A program made the translations under genes and the position numbers. From Lentisphaeria bacterium (GTDB lineage: Bacteria > Verrucomicrobiota > Lentisphaeria > Victivallales > Victivallaceae): a stretch of 63,426 bases of DNA. Positions within the stretch are counted from its first letter, which is position 1. The number at the start of each line of letters is the position of its first letter. Shown here in pieces: positions 32,019-55,489 of the stretch. The DNA is taken from the NCBI GenBank assembly GCA_022768375.1, contig JALEMG010000059.1, positions 1-63,426 of the forward strand, written 5' to 3'. The notes beneath the pieces are model-generated. The model did not search any database. It had not been told where the DNA came from and saw nothing but the letters and a program-made list of their open reading frames with translations.

Positions 32019-34112
32019 CTACCAATCCTTTTCCACTTGTTTCCGGCGCTGCTGCCGGACGCGGCGCATCGCGTCCCGCAGGGCCCCGGCTTCCTCGTCG
32101 AGCAACTCCAGTTTGCGTTCGGCGGCGCGTTCCTTCGCCGTCCGTTCCGGTCCCGACGCCGCGCCGGTCCGGTCCGCCGTCTCGTTTTTTTCGGACTTGC
32201 CGTTTTTTTCGGACTTGTCCTGCGATCCGGGCCGATCCTGCGGCTTATCGGTTTTGTCCCGCGGCTCGGGCCGCCCCAGGGCCCGGACCGCGTCATCCAG
32301 TTTCTTCTGCGCCCCGGCGGAGTCGTTTTGCTCCTGATGCCGCTGCGCCTCGGCCAGATCCTTCTCCGCTTCCCGCGCCTTCTCCGCCAGATCCCGCTGC
32401 TGCAGATCCTGCGCCTTCTCCGCCAGATCCCGCGCCGCCTCCCGCGCCTTGCGGGTCTGCTCCGCGGCGGTGTTGTCCTGCCGGTCCTGCCGACCCTGCT
32501 GGTCTTGCCGACCCTGCTGATTCTGCTGACCCTGCTGATTCTGCTGACCCTGCTGGTTCTGCTGACCCTGCTGGTTCTGCTTGCCCTGCTGATTCTGCTG
32601 GTTCTGCTGTTGCGCTTTTTGAGCCTGCTCCCGGGCTTTTTGCTGCTGCTGTTTCAGTTCTTCAATGGCTTGTTTCAGTTTTTCCGCCTCCTGCCGGTCC
32701 AGCAGCAGTTGCCGGAAGTTCGCGCCGCCGGGGTCCCTCTCCCCGGGAACGCCGGAAAACTGCATGGACCCGGTGTAGAATTCCCCCGCGCCGGAGAATT
32801 TCTCCGTCGCTCCGGCCACGGCTTTCTGCGCCTCGTCCAACTGCTGTTTCCGCAGCATTTCCCGGCTTCGGGTCAGCATTTCCCGACCGTCCCGATGGGT
32901 CAGCACCCCGAGATTCTGCAATGCCGCCGCCCGGACCGGTTCCGGCGTCTCCGGCAACTGGACCGCCTTTTCATAGAACTGCCGGGCGGCCCCGTCGCCG
33001 TCGGTCTGGTGCCGCCGCCCCTGTTCGTACAGCGCGTAAGGATCGTCCGGCAGGTCCATCACCTTGTCCGCGCCGAACATCTCCGCGCCGGACAGCGCCG
33101 CCGCCAGCAGCAGCGCCGTTTTCACCGTCCGCCGCTCCGGAATGAGAATCGCCGCCAGCAGAGCGAACAGCGCCGCCGCCAGAAACCACGGAAAAAGATC
33201 GTCCACCTCCATGCGGTCCTTCGCGGCAAGATCCGCCGTGCCGATCCGGTTGATGAACCGGTTCAATTCGCCGATCCCGGTGTCCTCCGTCCGGCTGCGC
33301 ACGTAGATCCCGCCGGTGACGGACGCCAGATGCCGCAGCGCCGCTTCGTTCAGCCGACTGGCCGCCGCTTTGCCGTCCGCCCCGCGCATCACCCCGCCCC
33401 GGCCGTCCGGGACCGGAGCCTCCAGCGCCGGGTCTCCGAATCCGGCCACCGCCAGCGGAATGTGCTGTTTGCGCAGTTCGTCCGCCGCGGATGCCGCATT
33501 GCCGCTCAACTCATCGCCGTCCGTGAAAAGCAGCACCGCCCGGTTCTCCCCCTCCGCGCCGGAAAACGCCCGCTCCGCCACCTGCAGCGCCCGTTCGAGA
33601 TTCGTCCCGCCCAGCGGCACGCTGTCCACGCTCAGATCGGCGATCGCCTCCTCCAGCGCGGTGTGGTCGGCGGTCAGCGGACAACTCAGAAACGCATTGC
33701 CGGCAAACGGAATGATCCCGAACCGGTCGCCGGGATGTGCCTGGATCACTTCCCGCAGCAGATACTTCGCCTGATCCATCCGGGACGGCGGCAGGTCCGT
33801 CGCCCGCATGCTTCTGGAAACATCGAAAAGAACCAGAATATCCCGCCCCGCGCGTTCCGTCCGCCGCGTCACCATGTGCCGATACGGGCGCGCCGCCGCC
33901 GCGATCAGCAGCAGCATCGCCGCGACGAGCAGCACGTGTTTCCAGTTTCTCCGCCTTCGGGAAAGATGCACCGCGCGCGGGTCCCGGCTCCGCGCGCCCA
34001 GGACCGCCTCCAGCAGACGCCGCCGCTTCTCCGCCGCGTGCGCGAACAGCGCCGCCGCAAGGATCCCCGCCGCCGGAATCAGCAGGAAATAGTACGGGTT
34101 GACATATTTCAT
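32019..34112 (-). CDS. BatB-BatC fusion: VWA-domain protein with TPR and Gln-rich tail
   Basis: The 697-residue protein has two N-terminal membrane segments (about 8-25 and 58-75) and a VWA domain whose MIDAS motif is DVSRS (D97, S99, S101), with LLFTDGDE. A further membrane segment lies near 308-325. A BatC-like TPR region with YALYEQGRRHQTDGDGAARQ follows, then a Gln/Asn-rich repeat (about 500-540) and a charged, Lys/Glu/Asp-rich C-terminus. It probably works with the BatD-E protein at the inner membrane. No separate BatA or MoxR gene is in the window. Confidence 0.82.
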   Translation of the reverse strand: MKYVNPYYFLLIPAAGILAAALFAHAAEKRRRLLEAVLGARSRDPRAVHLSRRRRNWKHVLLVAAMLLLIAAAARPYRHMVTRRTERAGRDILVLFDVSRSMRATDLPPSRMDQAKYLLREVIQAHPGDRFGIIPFAGNAFLSCPLTADHTALEEAIADLSVDSVPLGGTNLERALQVAERAFSGAEGENRAVLLFTDGDELSGNAASAADELRKQHIPLAVAGFGDPALEAPVPDGRGGVMRGADGKAAASRLNEAALRHLASVTGGIYVRSRTEDTGIGELNRFINRIGTADLAAKDRMEVDDLFPWFLAAALFALLAAILIPERRTVKTALLLAAALSGAEMFGADKVMDLPDDPYALYEQGRRHQTDGDGAARQFYEKAVQLPETPEPVRAAALQNLGVLTHRDGREMLTRSREMLRKQQLDEAQKAVAGATEKFSGAGEFYTGSMQFSGVPGERDPGGANFRQLLLDRQEAEKLKQAIEELKQQQQKAREQAQKAQQQNQQNQQGKQNQQGQQNQQGQQNQQGQQNQQGRQDQQGRQDRQDNTAAEQTRKAREAARDLAEKAQDLQQRDLAEKAREAEKDLAEAQRHQEQNDSAGAQKKLDDAVRALGRPEPRDKTDKPQDRPGSQDKSEKNGKSEKNETADRTGAASGPERTAKERAAERKLELLDEEAGALRDAMRRVRQQRRKQVEKDW
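32481..32612 (-). repeat. in-frame 18-bp tandem repeat coding for Gln-Gln-Asn units
   Basis: About six copies of an 18-base unit (coding GQQNQQ, with variants GRQDQQ) lie inside the BatB-BatC gene. Such repeats are slippage-prone, and changes by whole units keep the frame. Confidence 0.85.
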
Positions 34113-43473: not shown

Positions 43474-46400
43474 TTAGTTCTCGTTTGGAACGGGAATGAT
43501 CTGCTTGAGTTTGAGCGAACAGATAAATGCGGCAACGGCGAATTCCGGGAGATCGAGCAGACGGGAGAGGGACTGGCGGTAGATTTTCAACTGCCCGGCG
43601 TAGACGAGGAAATCCTCGGCGTCGGCCAGATCGTCGGTCTTCCAGTCGAAAACCTCCGCCCTGACCGGTCTGCCGCCGCGCCGGAACAGCACGACCCGGT
43701 CAAAGGTCCCGGGGATCACGGTGCCGTTGCCGGCGGTGCTCAGAAAACCGCGTTCGTTCCAGACCTCCGCGTCTTCCGGGACGTCGGCAAGCAAAGTTCG
43801 GATCGCGGAGGGTGCTTCCAGCGCCCGGACGAAAATTTCGGCTGCTGCTGCGGCAAACGGCGAGTCCGGCAGATTGGCCGCCGCGAATTTTTTCGCGTCG
43901 AAATCCGGCGCGATGCGGACGATCTTTTCCATCAGACCGTGGACCAGAGTGCCGACCTCGGTGCCGCCGGACGGATGGAAGCGCCTGGCCGGAGTGATGG
44001 CGGCGGATTTGGCGTCGGAGGCCCGAAGCGTCCGATTCCCGGCGAAACGGCATACCGTCCGGGGCGGTTCCGCCGCCGCCGCAAACGCGGGCGGAGCGTC
44101 GGATTCGGGGATCAGACCGGGCCACGACCTCCGCCCCGACGTGTAGTGCGGCGTCAGTTCCAGACCGGTCCGTTGCCGCAGGTCGTCGAAATACTCCAGA
44201 TCGTCGGCCTGAGGACCCCGGGCGCGAAGTTGTTCCCGGACGATCTGGTCCAGCGCCATGGACCTGGACTCGGTCGCGGAAGGGGAGATGAGAACGTAGA
44301 GCGAGCGTTTGGCTCGGGTGAGGGCGACGTAGAGGTCGCAGCAACTTTCAAAGGCCTGATCCTGCCGGTGCTTCGCGGCGTTTTCCGCGAAAGGCGGTAT
44401 CTCCGCGGCAACTCCGGCGGGCGGCGGGTAGCAGATCCACTCCGGCGTCGGCAGAGATTCGCCGTAGACTTCGGAAGTGGCGACGATCTGAGCGTCGGGA
44501 AGCAGCAAATTCCGTCCGCCGCCGGTCTGACGGCAGATGTCCGGCAGAAAAACGATGTCGAATTCCAGTCCTTTGGATTTGTGAAAAGTCATCACCTGGA
44601 TCGTCCGGTCCACGGCGGCGGCGGCGCTGCCGGTTTCCTTGACGAGGGCGATGAAGTCGGTCGGCGAACCGGAAAAATCCGCCGCCATTTTGACCATGCC
44701 GGTCACGCGCTTCAAGTCGAACGCGGTCATTTCCCCTCCGAATCCGTCCAGAAACCTTTCCGCCAGTCCGCCGATTCCGGAGCGGAAAAGTTCGTTTCGG
44801 AGCGCGGAAGCGGGCTCCTGCGCCGGATCAAGCCCCAGTCTCCGGAGGATTTCCGCCGCTCCCAGCGGTTCCGGGTCGCTCTCCGCCCGGTCGAATGTGA
44901 CGGTCGCAAGAAACTCCCGCGCCGACTGGTCCTGCGGATGCGAGGCCAGTGTGATCAGCGCGGAGAAGAAGTGGAACCCCATGCTTTCGCCGATTCCGAT
45001 CCTGCCCTCGGAGGAGACCGGCAGGTCCGCGCCGGCGTCGGCGGCAAGCATGCGCAGTTCTTCGGAAAAAAGTTCCACGGTGCGGTTTTTCTGGACCAGC
45101 ACGCCGACGGTGAGATTTTTTTTCAGGGGGCGGATCTCCCGGAGGATCTCGAAAATGATCCGGGCCTTGCGCCGGACCTGAATGCCGTCATTCCGGCCGG
45201 ACGCGGGGTCGCGTTCGCATTCGATGAGCGCGGCAAATCCCTCCATGTCGGTTTTGGCGGCGATGTGGGGCGTGAACTCCATCCTTTTTTGGGCCGGAGC
45301 GAAAAGCGGCAGATTTCCGGTGTACGGTACGCCGAAAATGCCGTTCACCATGTCCAGCACGCTCTGAGCGGAGCGATAGGAGCGATTCAGCGATTCCCGG
45401 GGATCGTAGCCGTGGAGTTGCGCCGCCGGAGTTGCCAGCGCGGTCAGGTAGGCGAAAAGTCCGGGATCGCCGTCCCGCCACTGGTAGATGGACTGCTTGA
45501 TGTCCCCGACGCAGAAAAAGGATCGGAACTCCTCCCTCTCCGCGCTGAAAAGTTCCCGGACCATCCCGTCGAAAATCCGCCACTGGGAGTCGCTGGTATC
45601 CTGAAATTCGTCGAAAAGAAAGTGCCGGATCTCGGTGTCCAGCCGCAGTTCCAGCGAACGGTCGTGACCGCCGAACACGGATTCCCGGGTCTCCGGGTCG
45701 GTCCCGCCCAGCAGGTAGGGCAGATCGGTGAAGGTGAGATTTCCGGCGCGTCGGACGCCGTCGTACACCGCGTCGAACTGCCGCATCAACTCGAATACGG
45801 CGGCGGTCTTGTTTCGGTTTTTGACGTAGAGCGCCGCCCGGATGTGGCGGAAGACCCGGCGGATCAGCGCCGAACACTCCATGCGGAAAGTAAGGTCCCG
45901 GGTGCAGCACAGTTCGCCCTCCGCGGCGTCGGCCCAGCCGGGACCGTTCTGCTCTCCGAGTTTCCGAAAGAGTTCGTTGACCGGATCGTCCAGCCTTCCG
46001 AATCCGTCCAGCGCGCGGGTTTTGGGGACGAATTGCGCCAGAGCGCGAAGTTTTTCCGCGAAGTTTCGGGTGCTCGCGGCTTTCGTCTTGTGGGTGAGAA
46101 ACGCGGCGGAATCGTCCAGTTCGGCGGCGAATCCGTCCAGTCGGGCGGCCGCCTCGTCCAGTTCGGCGGCGCTCATGACGTCGGCGCTTTCCGGCACCCA
46201 CGGCGCGAAGCGGACCTGAGGCATGGAGCCGTCGCGGTCCCGGAGGACCCGGAGCATGTAGTAGGGGTAGACTTCATGGAGCAGCGTTTGTAGACTTTGG
46301 GCGAAATTCCGGTCCTCGGACGAATTGGCCTCCTTGAGCAGTTCCCGCAGGGAGTCCAACTGCCGGGGGTCGGAGATGGAGCGTATCCACTCCCGGAACG

Positions 46401-49400
46401 TGCGGCGGATCAACCGTTTGTCGCCGGGGTCGAGCATGGAGACTTCGCCCCAGACGCCCAGTTCCGGCGCGAATGCCTTCAAGAGCCGCATGAAAAAACT
46501 GTCGATGGTGCTGATCTGGAGGTCCCGTTCGCAGGTGAGCAGCGAACGCAGCAAGGCGACGATTTTGCCGTGTTCGATGCAGAAGCATCCGATCCCGGGC
46601 CGGGAAGCGAGTTCCAGCATCCGGGCGATGATCTTGTCGAAAATCTCTCCGGCGGCCTCTTTGGTGAAGGTCACCGCCATGATCTGGGCCGGGTCCGCGT
46701 GACAGGCGAGCAGTTGGATGAACCGGGACGCCAGACGGTAGGTCTTGCCGGTCCCGGCGGACGCGGTGATGATCTTGAAGCGGCGGAACCCGTTGAAATC
46801 CTTGCAGTCGGCGCAGTTGCCGTGACAGCAGCGGCATTCGGCCTGAACTTCCGGCGGACAGTCGCAGATTCTCGTCGCCGCCGCCGGGGTGATCCGCGTC
46901 GGGAGACGGAGCGGCGGCGCGGGGACGGTTTCCGCCGGAAGGAGCGGTTTTCCGCGGGACGGCGGGAGGGGGACCGTTTCGGATACGCCGGAGTCTGCCG
47001 GAGCGTCCTTCGCCCAGACGACGTGGGTGAGGCAGGCCCGGGGCCCGCCGGGGAAGCCGTCGTGCAGGTCCCGCGCTTTGGTGCGGTGAAAGAAGTCCGG
47101 ATCCTCGTGCAGGACGCCGCGGGGCAGGTCCCGGATCTCCGCGACGATCTCCTCCGTCCGGCGCAGCGCGTCCGGCAGGACGGCGGCGAAGTCTTCCGGG
47201 TCCCAGAGGTTGACGCCGGTGGCGCTGACGTTCCGGGGCAGATTCAGATATCCGCACTCGATGCGGTCGAGTTTCAGTTCCGGGAAGCGGCGGCGGAACT
47301 CCCCGTCCGCCCGCAGCAGCAGCGCGTAAAGGGGCAGTTGGAGTTTCTTGAACCGGAGAAGTCCGTTCCGGCCGCGTGTATAATGGGCCTCGGCGATGTT
47401 TTCGGGGGTGCCGGTCTTGATGTCGATGATGCGGAGCGTCCCGGTGGAGCGATTGTACTCGATGCGGTCGATCTTGCCGGAAAAGAGCGCCCCGGCCAGC
47501 GGAACGCGGTCCAGTTTGTACTCGTTGATCACCGGTTCGAATCCGGCGGCGCGCTCCTGAACCAGCGCGGCGGCGGCGAATTTCAGCCGCTGGCGCATGG
47601 TTTCGGCCAGCAGCCGGATCAGCGCCGGGCGCGGCGGCGGCCCGAACTGCCGGTCCAGCACCCGCTCCAGTTGGGTCGACAGATGCCGTTCCAACTCCCG
47701 CGGGGCCGCGGCGTCGGCGGTCTCCAGGACCGCGTGGTACAACGTGCCGGTGATCCGGGCGTCCGGCTCCTCCTGATCGTAGTCGATGCGCTCCAGTTTC
47801 CGCACCCGGCGCAGGAAAAAGACCAGCGGAGAATCCAGATAGTCGTCCAGGTCCGTGGGCGACAGCAGCGGCCGGTCGTCGCCGTCGCCGCCGCGCCGGT
47901 AGTCCAGCGCGGGCCGGAGCCGGAACACCTTGCCCGGCGATCCGTCCGGCAACTCCGGCGGCGGGGGCGGGTCGGCAAAAAGAGTCCGGCACCGTTCGAA
48001 AAGAATTTCTTCCGGCAGGTCTTCCCCGGCGAAAAGCAGCGGCGACGGGCGCAGCACCGATTTTTCCCGGTCCCGGCGCAGGATGAGAAACTCCACCGCG
48101 CCGGGTTCCCGGCATCCGAGCAGACTCTGGAGGTGGCAGCGGGCGCGGGCGGCGGTCTCCCGATTGCTGCGCAGACCGATACGGCGGCGGAGGGAATCGG
48201 TGAGAAAGGGGGTCGGTTCGATCCGGTCGGGGAAAAATTTCTCGTTCAGACCGCAGAAAATCACCCGGGGCGCATCCAGAAACGGCATTTCCAGACACCC
48301 TTCCACGCCCCACGAGAACTCTCCCGGCTCCCCGGGGACGGTCGCGGCGGCGCAGTGGCGGAAGAAGATCTCCAGCACCCGGACCCGGCGGGAGGGGCCC
48401 GTCAGTTTTTCCGGCAGGCGGTCCAACTCCGCCAACTGCTTCCGAAATTCGGCGCATTCGGCGGCGAACGTCGTCTGAAACAGCGTCTCCCGATCGAGTT
48501 TCGGATCCGGCGGGTAGACCGTACGGAAAAATTCCCGGAGAAACTCCGCCGCGCCCGACTCGTTCAGCCGCCGCGGCCACGCCGCCAGTTCCGCCAGCAT
48601 GTCGTGGAGACAGCCGCCCTGCTCCGGCGGCAACTCCCGCGTCAGGGCCAGCGCCCGGTCCAGATCGTCCGGCACAAAGCGGACGGTGAAGCGGTCCAGC
48701 GCCGCCAGAATGTCCTCCGCCGTCCGTCCCGGAGAGGTCAGATGAAGCAGATAATCGTGTTCCCGAAGCAGTTCCGCCGCGCCGGAGAAGTCGCCCGGAG
48801 CGGCCAGAAACTCCGTCAGGCGGGTCCCCAGACGGCAGAGCCGCAGTTTCCGCATGGGCACTCCGGCGGGATCGTACAATGTCAGCGGTTCGCCGTCCGG
48901 GGAGGTGAAGCGGGCGAATTCCCTGCGGAAGGCGTCGAACATCCCCGGGTCGGCGAGCACCATCGCGCACCGGTCCGGGCGCAGACCCTCCTGTCCGGCG
49001 GCCAGTTGCGCCGCGATCCCGGCGGCATGGTCCGCGTCCCGGACCAGACAGCAGTTGCCGGGGGCGATCGGCAGGGCCCGCTTGTGCCACACCTCCGGGT
49101 CGGGCGCGCCCCAGCGGTCGAAGGCGGCGGCCTGATCCGCCGTGGCGTGGATCCAGACCTCGATCCGGCCGGGGAACTGCCGGTCGATATTCTCCAGTTT
49201 GGTCCTCAGCGGATTGGGCAGGTCCGGCACTCCGGCGAGGACGATCTTCATTCCCGGGTCGGCAAAGGGGGCGGTGTCGGCGGCGTCTTCCCGGTCCCGC
49301 TCCAGCGGGTCGCGTCCGCCGCAGGCGGCCAGTTCGCGCAGATAGAGTTGTTCCAGTTCCGCGAACTGCGCCCCCCTTTCACCGGTGTACCGGGCGATGT

Positions 49401-49821
49401 CGGCCAGCGAAAACCCGCCCCGCGCCGTCTCGTTGCGGAACTCCCGGAATTTCCGCCCGGAAAGGTACAGATCCGCGCTCCGGGTCCCCTCCGGGAAGAT
49501 CAGATGAAACCGTTCCGGCGTACGCAGCGCCTGTTCCGCCGCCCGGACCCAGAGCAGTTCCTCGGCCATCGCCGGCATTTCCGGTCCGTCGTCCCGGCGG
49601 AAATGCAGCAGTTGCGCCGGCGTGACGATCCGGGGCATGAGCACTCCCCGGGGGGCTCGGGCGGCCAGCGCCGCCAGAACTTTCTTCCGGGCCAACTGGC
49701 CCGGGAGCGTCAGCAGAACGCCGCTCAGATCGACCGGAACGCCGAGGGCGGAACGGAGCAGCCGTTCCGCGATGAGCGACGGCAGATCCCGGTCCCACCC
49801 CAGAAAAACCGTTTCGGCCAT
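43474..49821 (-). CDS. single-chain AddB-AddA-like helicase-nuclease
   Basis: One 2115-residue frame joins two halves. Residues 1-1000 resemble AddB: a helicase-like region without a normal Walker A, then a PD-(D/E)XK nuclease with GKIDRIEY near 784 and IIDIKTG near 800. After a cysteine-rich linker (about 985-1010) residues 1015-2115 resemble AddA. It has Walker A ITASAGTGKTYRLA, ISTIDSFFMRLLKAFAPEL, LFDEFQDTSDSQW near 1405, HKSKGLEFDIVFLPD near 1750, and a second nuclease with GTFDRVVLF and EVFDWKTD near 2059. Such enzymes process double-strand breaks for RecA. The first AddB Fe-S cysteine is absent (YLDSPLVFFL). Last gene of the mutM operon. Confidence 0.85.
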   Translation of the reverse strand: MAETVFLGWDRDLPSLIAERLLRSALGVPVDLSGVLLTLPGQLARKKVLAALAARAPRGVLMPRIVTPAQLLHFRRDDGPEMPAMAEELLWVRAAEQALRTPERFHLIFPEGTRSADLYLSGRKFREFRNETARGGFSLADIARYTGERGAQFAELEQLYLRELAACGGRDPLERDREDAADTAPFADPGMKIVLAGVPDLPNPLRTKLENIDRQFPGRIEVWIHATADQAAAFDRWGAPDPEVWHKRALPIAPGNCCLVRDADHAAGIAAQLAAGQEGLRPDRCAMVLADPGMFDAFRREFARFTSPDGEPLTLYDPAGVPMRKLRLCRLGTRLTEFLAAPGDFSGAAELLREHDYLLHLTSPGRTAEDILAALDRFTVRFVPDDLDRALALTRELPPEQGGCLHDMLAELAAWPRRLNESGAAEFLREFFRTVYPPDPKLDRETLFQTTFAAECAEFRKQLAELDRLPEKLTGPSRRVRVLEIFFRHCAAATVPGEPGEFSWGVEGCLEMPFLDAPRVIFCGLNEKFFPDRIEPTPFLTDSLRRRIGLRSNRETAARARCHLQSLLGCREPGAVEFLILRRDREKSVLRPSPLLFAGEDLPEEILFERCRTLFADPPPPPELPDGSPGKVFRLRPALDYRRGGDGDDRPLLSPTDLDDYLDSPLVFFLRRVRKLERIDYDQEEPDARITGTLYHAVLETADAAAPRELERHLSTQLERVLDRQFGPPPRPALIRLLAETMRQRLKFAAAALVQERAAGFEPVINEYKLDRVPLAGALFSGKIDRIEYNRSTGTLRIIDIKTGTPENIAEAHYTRGRNGLLRFKKLQLPLYALLLRADGEFRRRFPELKLDRIECGYLNLPRNVSATGVNLWDPEDFAAVLPDALRRTEEIVAEIRDLPRGVLHEDPDFFHRTKARDLHDGFPGGPRACLTHVVWAKDAPADSGVSETVPLPPSRGKPLLPAETVPAPPLRLPTRITPAAATRICDCPPEVQAECRCCHGNCADCKDFNGFRRFKIITASAGTGKTYRLASRFIQLLACHADPAQIMAVTFTKEAAGEIFDKIIARMLELASRPGIGCFCIEHGKIVALLRSLLTCERDLQISTIDSFFMRLLKAFAPELGVWGEVSMLDPGDKRLIRRTFREWIRSISDPRQLDSLRELLKEANSSEDRNFAQSLQTLLHEVYPYYMLRVLRDRDGSMPQVRFAPWVPESADVMSAAELDEAAARLDGFAAELDDSAAFLTHKTKAASTRNFAEKLRALAQFVPKTRALDGFGRLDDPVNELFRKLGEQNGPGWADAAEGELCCTRDLTFRMECSALIRRVFRHIRAALYVKNRNKTAAVFELMRQFDAVYDGVRRAGNLTFTDLPYLLGGTDPETRESVFGGHDRSLELRLDTEIRHFLFDEFQDTSDSQWRIFDGMVRELFSAEREEFRSFFCVGDIKQSIYQWRDGDPGLFAYLTALATPAAQLHGYDPRESLNRSYRSAQSVLDMVNGIFGVPYTGNLPLFAPAQKRMEFTPHIAAKTDMEGFAALIECERDPASGRNDGIQVRRKARIIFEILREIRPLKKNLTVGVLVQKNRTVELFSEELRMLAADAGADLPVSSEGRIGIGESMGFHFFSALITLASHPQDQSAREFLATVTFDRAESDPEPLGAAEILRRLGLDPAQEPASALRNELFRSGIGGLAERFLDGFGGEMTAFDLKRVTGMVKMAADFSGSPTDFIALVKETGSAAAAVDRTIQVMTFHKSKGLEFDIVFLPDICRQTGGGRNLLLPDAQIVATSEVYGESLPTPEWICYPPPAGVAAEIPPFAENAAKHRQDQAFESCCDLYVALTRAKRSLYVLISPSATESRSMALDQIVREQLRARGPQADDLEYFDDLRQRTGLELTPHYTSGRRSWPGLIPESDAPPAFAAAAEPPRTVCRFAGNRTLRASDAKSAAITPARRFHPSGGTEVGTLVHGLMEKIVRIAPDFDAKKFAAANLPDSPFAAAAAEIFVRALEAPSAIRTLLADVPEDAEVWNERGFLSTAGNGTVIPGTFDRVVLFRRGGRPVRAEVFDWKTDDLADAEDFLVYAGQLKIYRQSLSRLLDLPEFAVAAFICSLKLKQIIPVPNEN

Positions 49822-49824
49822 CGG

Positions 49825-50661
49825 TCACACCTCCGGCAGTTTGTACCGCAGCCGCAGGGATTGCCGGAGATAGACCGGAATGCCCCGGATGCGCCAGCCG
49901 ATGAGCCGTCCGCGATGGGAATACTGGATCGTCTCTCCGAAAACCGCGGCGTGATCCGGCAGTTTCCGCCAGAATCCCAGATTCAGCACCGGCACGAAAA
50001 CTTTCCGCAGAAACACCCGGAGTTGCCGCTGCAGCCGCAGCCGGTAAAAGTGGCGCATGCCCGCCGCTCCTCCGGCAATGGCGGCGTAGCGTCCGTCGCG
50101 GCGGCGGCCGGTGATGAGCGGGATCGGCCCCTCGGGGGCCAGCGGCTTCGGATCGGGAAGATCGTTGTTGTCCCCCATGGTGATCCACGCCCCCGGCTTC
50201 CCGCCGACGATCCGGTGTCCGGTCTGACGGCCGGACGCGTCGGAGAAAACGACCACGTCGCCCCGGCGCAGCCGTTCCGGGGCGACGGTCACGGTCTCCA
50301 GTTCGTCGCCTCCGGCAAAGGTGCCCAGCATGCTGGAACCGATTCCGCACCGGCGGTCCGCCGTTTCCGCCGCGTTCGTTTTCGTCGCGGGCAGGGGCGG
50401 CAGACTTTCCCCGGAGAATCCGGTGAGAAATCCCGCGCCCTGCAGCATGGCCAGAAACGGTTCCACTTCGCAAATTTTCCGGCGGTCTCCGCCGGTGATC
50501 TCGTCCAGCGTCGTCCTAAGGGGCAGACGGTCCCGCATTTGGATATAGATCGCCGCGCCGGAAGCGTTGACCGTCAACGCACGCTTGCGGTCCGGGTCGT
50601 AGAGGATCGCCCGGTCCCGGAGGTAACGGAGGACGATGCGGCGGTTGAGTTCCAGGGTCAT
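49825..50661 (-). CDS. PqqD-like domain fused to S26-type signal peptidase-like domain
   Basis: Residues 8-80 of this 278-residue protein resemble PqqD (AILYDPDRKRALTVNASGAAIY, then FLAMLQGAGFL). Residues 105-185 resemble S26 peptidases of the Ser-His type: GIGSSMLGTFAGGD with S110, LRRGDVVVF, TGHRIVGG with H149 and TMGDNNDLPD. The tail of about 90 residues is basic, with no clear transmembrane helix, which is odd for a signal peptidase. It overlaps the upstream gene by four bases and ends three bases before addBA. Such fusions could process or chaperone a peptide; the substrate is unknown. Confidence 0.7.
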   Translation of the reverse strand: MTLELNRRIVLRYLRDRAILYDPDRKRALTVNASGAAIYIQMRDRLPLRTTLDEITGGDRRKICEVEPFLAMLQGAGFLTGFSGESLPPLPATKTNAAETADRRCGIGSSMLGTFAGGDELETVTVAPERLRRGDVVVFSDASGRQTGHRIVGGKPGAWITMGDNNDLPDPKPLAPEGPIPLITGRRRDGRYAAIAGGAAGMRHFYRLRLQRQLRVFLRKVFVPVLNLGFWRKLPDHAAVFGETIQYSHRGRLIGWRIRGIPVYLRQSLRLRYKLPEV

Positions 50662-51362
50662 GTTTCCGCCTCCGGGGTCTCCGGGCCGCCGTATCCGCGC
50701 CACGACCTGATGAACCGCTGAACGGAGATGATCGGACCGACCACTCCGATTTGGTCCGGGTCGAAGGCGGCGAACGAGACCTGTTTGCGCTCCGGGTCGG
50801 CCAACTCCCTCAGCATGGTCTGATTGCGGAAAAAGCACCGGACGCAGACGTGTCCGTCCTCCGGCAGCACGCACAGCACCGGCGCGCCGTCCCGGGGCGG
50901 CAGCCCGATGGCGCAGACCACCGCGTCGCCCCGGAAAATGTGCAGCGGCGCCATGACGTTGTCGTCCACGAGAAACGCGCAGAACCGGACCACGCTCCCG
51001 GCGTACTCCCGGGGTACGGCCAGCGTGACGAAGGGACGGCGGTCCCGCCGCCCTTTCCGGGGCAGAAATTCCCCCGCCCGGATCTCCTCCGCGCTGAGCA
51101 GCGGCGCGCCGACCAGATGAGCCGGGCGGCACAGTTCGCCGTCCAGCAGTTTCTGAAGCGAGACCCGGCGGTCCACTTCCCGGTCCAGCAGTCCCTTGCG
51201 GCGCAGGGCTTTCAGGGTCGTCAGCAGATCTTTCTCGGAGACCCCGGCGGCGCGGGCGGCCCTGTCCGTCGTCAGCGGCAGCCGGACGTAGCGGGAAATC
51301 CCCGCGAGAACGGCGTTCAACACGGAAGCGTGCCGGGATGCGGCGGAAACATTGTCCTTCAT
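50658..51362 (-). CDS. LexA/S24-like protein with helix-turn-helix, catalytic pair apparently lost
   Basis: The 234-residue protein has an N-terminal winged-helix-like region (LTTDRAARAAGVSEKDLLTTL, 31-60). A LexA-like layout follows: APLLSAEEIRAGEF with an Ala-Gly pair at 96-97, FLVDDNVMAPLHIFRGD and DGHVCVRCFF. Aligned to LexA, the serine of the SM motif falls on V136 and the lysine of VKR on R175, so self-cleavage looks impossible. It lies in an operon with mutM and an AddB-AddA gene, so a damage-related regulator is an attractive inference. A non-LexA S24 relative is also possible. Confidence 0.6.
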   Translation of the reverse strand: MKDNVSAASRHASVLNAVLAGISRYVRLPLTTDRAARAAGVSEKDLLTTLKALRRKGLLDREVDRRVSLQKLLDGELCRPAHLVGAPLLSAEEIRAGEFLPRKGRRDRRPFVTLAVPREYAGSVVRFCAFLVDDNVMAPLHIFRGDAVVCAIGLPPRDGAPVLCVLPEDGHVCVRCFFRNQTMLRELADPERKQVSFAAFDPDQIGVVGPIISVQRFIRSWRGYGGPETPEAET

Positions 51363-55273: not shown

Positions 55274-55489
55274 AAAGAAAGATGCGGGGTTGCTTGTCCG
55301 CCGTAGCCTCGGCGAAGGCGGAAGCGGGAGGCGGCCGACGCATTAAATAAAAAATCAGGCAATATTGAGTGTAGAGCCGATAAAGAAAGATGCGGGGTTG
55401 CTTGTCCGCCGCAGCCTCGGCGAAGGCGGAAGCGGGAGGCGGCCGACGCATTGAATGGAAAATCAGACAACATTGAGTATAGAGCCAAA
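55274..55489 (+). repeat. 108-bp tandem duplication upstream of trpS
   Basis: Units 55274-55381 and 55382-55489 both begin AAAGAAAGATGCGGGGTTGC and differ at about eight positions. Parts occur in reverse at 43180-43290 and 41100-41150. Confidence 0.9.

Follow-up and report, generated by a model that had tools for sequence, protein, structure and literature searches.

A 63,426-nucleotide stretch of DNA from a Lentisphaeria bacterium (contig JALEMG010000059.1, here called the window) encodes AddB and AddA as one polypeptide: on the minus strand, positions 43474-49821 form a single open frame of 2115 codons without an internal stop, AddB first and AddA after it. The fusion is real, it is conserved within one genus of gut Victivallaceae (Lentisphaeria), and it gives a one-chain AddAB, a machine that is itself of a known type. 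We consider it very likely that the product is a natural single-chain AddAB-type helicase-nuclease whose halves fold separately and assemble like the heterodimer, and that it is the cell's only such resection complex. In the features below, "fused rows" are the ten aligned fused proteins (the window protein and nine orthologs, one of two identical copies being omitted), and the catalytic residues of both nucleases are named from the known PD-(D/E)XK motifs.

43474..49821, minus strand: fused AddB-AddA gene, 2115 codons plus stop.
47017..49821, minus strand: AddB half, residues 1-935; a helicase-like part that lacks Walker A, and a nuclease; fold match to 4cej_B, TIGR02786 match below cut-off.
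47143..47865, minus strand: AddB nuclease (Pfam PDDEXK_1), residues 653-893; H696, D785, D800, K802, Q828 and Y832 invariant in 10/10 fused rows.
46873..47013, minus strand: linker, residues 937-983; nothing corresponding in split genes; predicted local distance difference test (pLDDT) below 50 at residues 941-985.
46804..46872, minus strand: cysteine cluster, residues 984-1006, in the N-terminal extension of AddA.
44287..46773, minus strand: AddA UvrD-like helicase, residues 1017-1845, by Pfam and fold match; motor motifs present.
43579..43953, minus strand: AddA C-terminal nuclease, residues about 1957-2081; H1961, D2041, D2059, K2061, Q2077 and Y2081 invariant in 10/10 fused rows.

The original prediction had claimed one uninterrupted frame of 2115 residues at these coordinates without giving a strand. 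Reading of the open reading frames (ORFs), together with intact orthologs in relatives, bears out the frame and the coordinates; the gene lies on the minus strand, and the plus-strand reading of the same interval is not open, as it contains an internal stop. All of the motifs quoted at that time were located in the translated frame: GKIDRI at residues 782-787, IIDIKTG at 798-804, GTGKT at 1023-1027, DEFQDTS at 1404-1410, and DWKTD at 2059-2063. Pfam placed PDDEXK_1 at 653-893, UvrD-helicase at 1017-1457, and UvrD_C at 1735-1845. The motor residues and both sets of nuclease residues checked (H, D, DxK, QxxxY) were invariant in all ten aligned fused rows, and the predicted joining of AddB and AddA in the usual B-then-A order, with both nuclease sites complete, is thus what we find.

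A search for the same fusion in 60 relatives, which the original prediction had proposed as a check, returned ten further single fused frames in nine other genomes of the same genus (G001, G008, G011 twice, G014, G016, G020, G021, G025, and G028). Two of these ten loci encode the same protein. By ORF calling, the orthologs are 2082-2105 amino acids (aa) long and 39-52% identical to the window protein (nine rows). These orthologs bear directly on whether the single frame could be a sequencing or assembly artefact in which a stop was lost. The window genome is a draft of 64 contigs, as such an explanation would need, but the same fusion recurs in nine other genomes at 39-52% identity, and these belong to no fewer than two assembly sets (RGIG, SIG). 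Because the frame is intact in these relatives, it is not an assembly error, and the artefact explanation is refuted in practice. The G011 bin holds two different fused genes (L033 and L034). One of them has the same score and length as the gene in G020; with 5% contamination on record for G011, this copy may be foreign.

The fused chain is encoded in 10 of 34 genomes of the genus, the window's included. In a class sample of 197 genomes, 56 gave a match at E <= 1e-20 and 10 carried the fusion (11 copies); an evenly drawn phylum sample comprised 387 genomes, of which 169 matched at E <= 1e-40, and the fused genomes among the matches listed were eight, all of this genus. No fused frame outside the genus was found among the matches listed for these 197 class and 387 phylum genomes. 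Frame lengths reported by the searches can span stops between neighboring genes, and fusions were accepted only after the ORFs had been read. In this way, apparent AddB-AddA fusions in G051 (2225 aa), G340 (2065 aa), and G354 (2046 aa) and apparent RecC-RecB fusions in G109, G108, G098, G003, and G100 each proved to be two separate ORFs, and long AddA frames in G263, G351, G309, and G007 overlap addB in another frame and are not fusions. One further genome, G112, has an ORF of 1453 aa. As a query against genome contigs, the window protein alone gave no match, and an alignment query did match (best 80 of 365 relatives). Eighteen records of a plasmid collection matched, none over 80% of the query. 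We found no earlier report of a fused AddA/AddB in the open-licence literature.

Separate structure predictions of the two halves, also proposed originally, gave a fold closest to AddB for the N-terminal half and closest to RecB/AddA for the C-terminal half. The AlphaFold model of residues 1-1012 (31 rows) had a mean pLDDT of 86.0 and a predicted template modeling score (pTM) of 0.75, and its first five Foldseek places were taken by B chains of solved AddAB, followed by RecC and AdnA chains; 4cej_B matched with an E value of 5.5e-25, a template modeling score (TM-score) of 0.57, and a root mean square deviation (rmsd) of 9.2. The model of residues 976-2115 (34 rows; mean pLDDT 84.2, pTM 0.75) matched RecB and AddA chains best (8b1t_B, 5.7e-30; 4cej_A, 6.6e-30). 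The best NCBIfam match of the N-terminal half was the alphaproteobacterial AddB model TIGR02786 (4.8e-16). A Walker A pattern (G-x4-GK[ST]) was found in the AddB half of none of the ten fused rows, as would be expected for an inactive helicase-like part. E131, D542, and R545 are invariant in the ten rows and are candidates for a latch pair. AddAB has an ionic latch, E129-R629 in B. subtilis numbering, and passages of PMC4824097 cover this latch and the Chi model.

Several points weigh against the single-chain enzyme. Its support is wholly computational. Whole-length rmsd is high for the AddB-chain fold matches (9-12 A) and for the AddA/RecB-chain matches (16-18 A), the TIGR02786 score of 58 bits is far under the cut-off of 486.5, and the NCBIfam matches of the C-terminal half (RecB-like helicase and AddA models) are all under their cut-offs. 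A profile of the AddB half found no chain among PDB sequences at E <= 0.01, and chance matches only up to 10; the AddB assignment therefore rests mainly on fold, gene order, nuclease, and the 58-bit AddB match. The window genome is 94.75% complete, and so a missing RecC is no proof that the fused enzyme stands alone. Finally, the linker could be cleaved after translation.

Such a cut would restore ordinary separate AddB and AddA, and the fusion would then matter for expression only. The low pLDDT of the linker is in keeping with this, as is its variability across the ten fused rows in both sequence and length (38-49 residues). By eye, however, the ten linkers share no common cleavage motif, and their length stays confined to 38-49 residues; we regard cleavage as unlikely. 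A second way to a free AddA would be its additional translation from an internal start, and eight of the nine other fused orthologs do have at least two in-frame ATG, GTG, or TTG codons in the 130-codon stretch that precedes Walker A, the ninth having one. Against this, residues 881-1030 of the window gene are free of in-frame ATG, GTG, and TTG codons, which makes a separately started AddA improbable there; over the 80 codons immediately upstream of Walker A, no start offset is common to two orthologs, and L033 and L041 have no start codon at all in that interval. Taken together, we judge an internal start very improbable, and an intact single chain is the reading that we retain.

The linker is followed by six cysteines, C986, C988, C996, C998, C1003, and C1006, in the pattern CxC-x(4-7)-CxC-x(2-7)-C; all are present in 10/10 fused rows except C1003, which is present in 9. 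The original prediction took this cluster for a novelty of the linker, and here it was mistaken. We scored 116 AddA-like ORFs, a set that includes many duplicates of the same gene: 27 had the cluster, 62 did not (3 of these being RecB or RecC-RecB frames), and 27 could not be scored as the Walker A pattern was not found. The 27 positive ORFs reduce to nine distinct fused and four split proteins, the window not counted, and the four split carriers are N termini of separate AddA in sister genomes of the same genus. The cluster is thus an N-terminal extension of AddA that is older than the fusion; to judge from these comparisons it is not a feature of the fusion linker and, though of interest, is a matter apart from the fusion. 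When four cysteine segments were scanned with Pfam, no zinc-finger family came up, and one segment gave a weak UvrD hit that stems from the neighboring Walker A; the spacing of the residues suggests that the cluster likely binds metal.

Absence of the iron-sulfur (Fe-S) cysteine before the AddB nuclease, also claimed originally, is borne out: Ser664 occupies this position in the window protein, which is Cys in 16 of 31 AddB rows. The Fe-S triad after the nuclease was found in 0/31 AddB rows examined, planctomycete rows included; the C-terminal triad pattern does occur in 8 of the 31, all of them fused, and in every case it falls inside the AddA cysteine cluster. Because the triad is missing in 31/31 AddB rows, the fusion did not bring about the Fe-S loss. 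Work by Cromie in 2009 reportedly described AddB subclasses and their distribution, with a four-cysteine Fe-S cluster in a subset of AddB only.

A tree of 29 loci, built on 1950 columns under LG+F+R4 with ultrafast bootstrap and without G007, groups the ten fused rows in a single clade (100), with split G006 plus G026 as sister (100) and split G002 plus G015 next (98); weak nodes elsewhere have values of 46-60. A single fusion event is the simplest reading of this topology, and the origin is probably single. How the fusion arose is less simple than the loss of an intergenic stop that had been proposed. In support of that proposal, the addB stop and addA ATG of G015 lie in the same frame, 6 nucleotides (nt) apart. 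This is the sole in-frame case of the four sister split loci: addB and addA overlap by 17 and 38 nt in G006 and G026, the two split members of the clade nearest the fused clade, and lie 20 nt apart in G002, all out of frame. No counterpart of the linker was seen in split AddB or AddA sequences, and since 38-49 residues are thus extra, a frame match and new linker sequence were needed, which is more than one lost stop.

The window genome has a single PDDEXK_1 place, which is the fused gene, and RecA is present. No RecC (Exonuc_V_gamma) match was found in the genome, and no recD above cut-off, the best being a 794-aa frame at 130.5 bits against a cut-off of 310.15 that we infer to be RecD2-like. 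Across the 34 genomes of the genus, 17 have RecC, 15 have AddAB-type matches (those of G007 more divergent, and split), none has both, and 2 have neither (G004 and G033, 54% and 76% complete). Passages of PMC1193525 describe RecBCD and AddAB as likewise complementing each other in their distribution across bacteria at large, and with this pattern the exclusivity within the genus supports the view that the fused protein is the sole enzyme of this class in its genome.

A parallel fusion was seen on the RecBCD side of the genus, in one genome (G019) among the matches listed from the 197 genomes searched.

L134:3909-10073, minus strand: RecC-RecB frame in G019, 2054 codons, then recD; N terminus cut by the contig end.

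This single frame carries Exonuc_V_gamma, RecC_C, UvrD, and PDDEXK_1, with recD next to it. In G005 and G032, the closest to G019 among the matches listed, the two genes share a frame and a single stop separates them. By eye, the junction in G019 has about 30 residues unlike those of G005 and G032. The position of the RecB start also lacks an ATG there, so one wrong base would not account for the joined frame. On these sequences, we regard the RecC-RecB fusion as independent of the AddB-AddA fusion.

Were the single-chain enzyme to work as its domains suggest, the AddA half would be the ATP-driven motor and would cut one strand, and the AddB half, its motor dead, would hold the DNA and cut the other strand with its own nuclease, probably while scanning for a Chi-like signal. 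Each half would fold on its own, and the two would assemble as in the ordinary heterodimer, with a flexible tether of ~40-50 residues between them; as the only end-resection complex of its class in the cell, the enzyme would feed RecA. Activity, an uncleaved state, assembly within one chain, and Chi regulation of the fused protein are all what we would infer from its composition. AddAB and RecBCD are studied as multi-subunit machines whose way of working includes how the subunits assemble and in what ratio. If an AddAB of one chain does occur in nature, it would mean that separate subunits are dispensable, and single-molecule studies would gain an enzyme with a fixed 1:1 ratio in which each nuclease or the motor could be inactivated in cis. 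A genus in which AddAB and RecBCD are alternatives, with a fusion in each, is also a small test bed for replacement. A bolder idea, which we hold to be rather unlikely, is that single-chain break-resection complexes are under selection in this genus (AddB-AddA, fused once and retained in ten genomes, and RecC-RecB, fused independently in a genome with RecBCD) and that the AddA cysteine module is a new metal-binding element at the joint that may act as a clamp between the halves or as a redox sensor.

The fused gene starts with an ATG at 49821-49819, with GGAGG 8 nt upstream, and the TGA of the frame before it (49825-51132, minus strand) ends 3 nt before this ATG. To judge from this spacing, translation of the two may be coupled.

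49830..49834, minus strand: Shine-Dalgarno-like GGAGG, 8 nt before the ATG; putative role.
49825-49827, minus strand: TGA of the upstream frame, 3 nt before the fused-gene ATG.

The upstream frame matches a signal-peptidase model only weakly (TIGR02228, 33 bits, below cut-off) and has a homolog in the same place in G016. When 15 neighboring frames of the window were compared with 28 loci, a shared neighborhood was seen in G016 only, with single weak matches in L041 and L049; genomic context thus tells little about function. Elsewhere in the window, a 108-bp unit is present in two tandem copies with 93% matches (55274-55486), and an 18-bp tandem repeat of about 7 copies (32477-32600) lies inside a minus-strand frame with a von Willebrand A domain (32019-34112).

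Among known systems, AddAB/RexAB is the closest in kind. PDB entries 4cej and 3u44 are the solved AddAB of B. subtilis. The fused protein has the same two folds in the same B-then-A order, with a single motor and a nuclease site in each half: a UvrD-like superfamily 1 helicase with a RecB-family nuclease, and an inactive helicase-like AddB part with an intact H-D-DxK-QxxxY site. It differs in being encoded as one chain, whereas AddAB/RexAB consists of two separate subunits, and in lacking the AddB Fe-S cysteines and AddB Walker A and having a cysteine-rich AddA N terminus. The best NCBIfam matches of the two halves, the PRK13909 'RecB-like helicase' models and TIGR02786, lie far below their curated cut-offs; the former represent Helicobacter-type AddA, and PRK13909-type AddA and TIGR02786 AddB proteins are separate polypeptides. 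RecBCD is similar in that RecC is the second fold family for the N-terminal half and the RecB chain 8b1t_B the first match of the C-terminal half, but the fused N-terminal half retains a complete nuclease site, in a genome without RecC or an above-cut-off recD. The mycobacterial AdnAB also gives fold matches for both halves and has two nuclease sites; it carries Walker A in both of its subunits, whereas the N-terminal half of the fused protein has none, which sets the latter apart from AdnAB.

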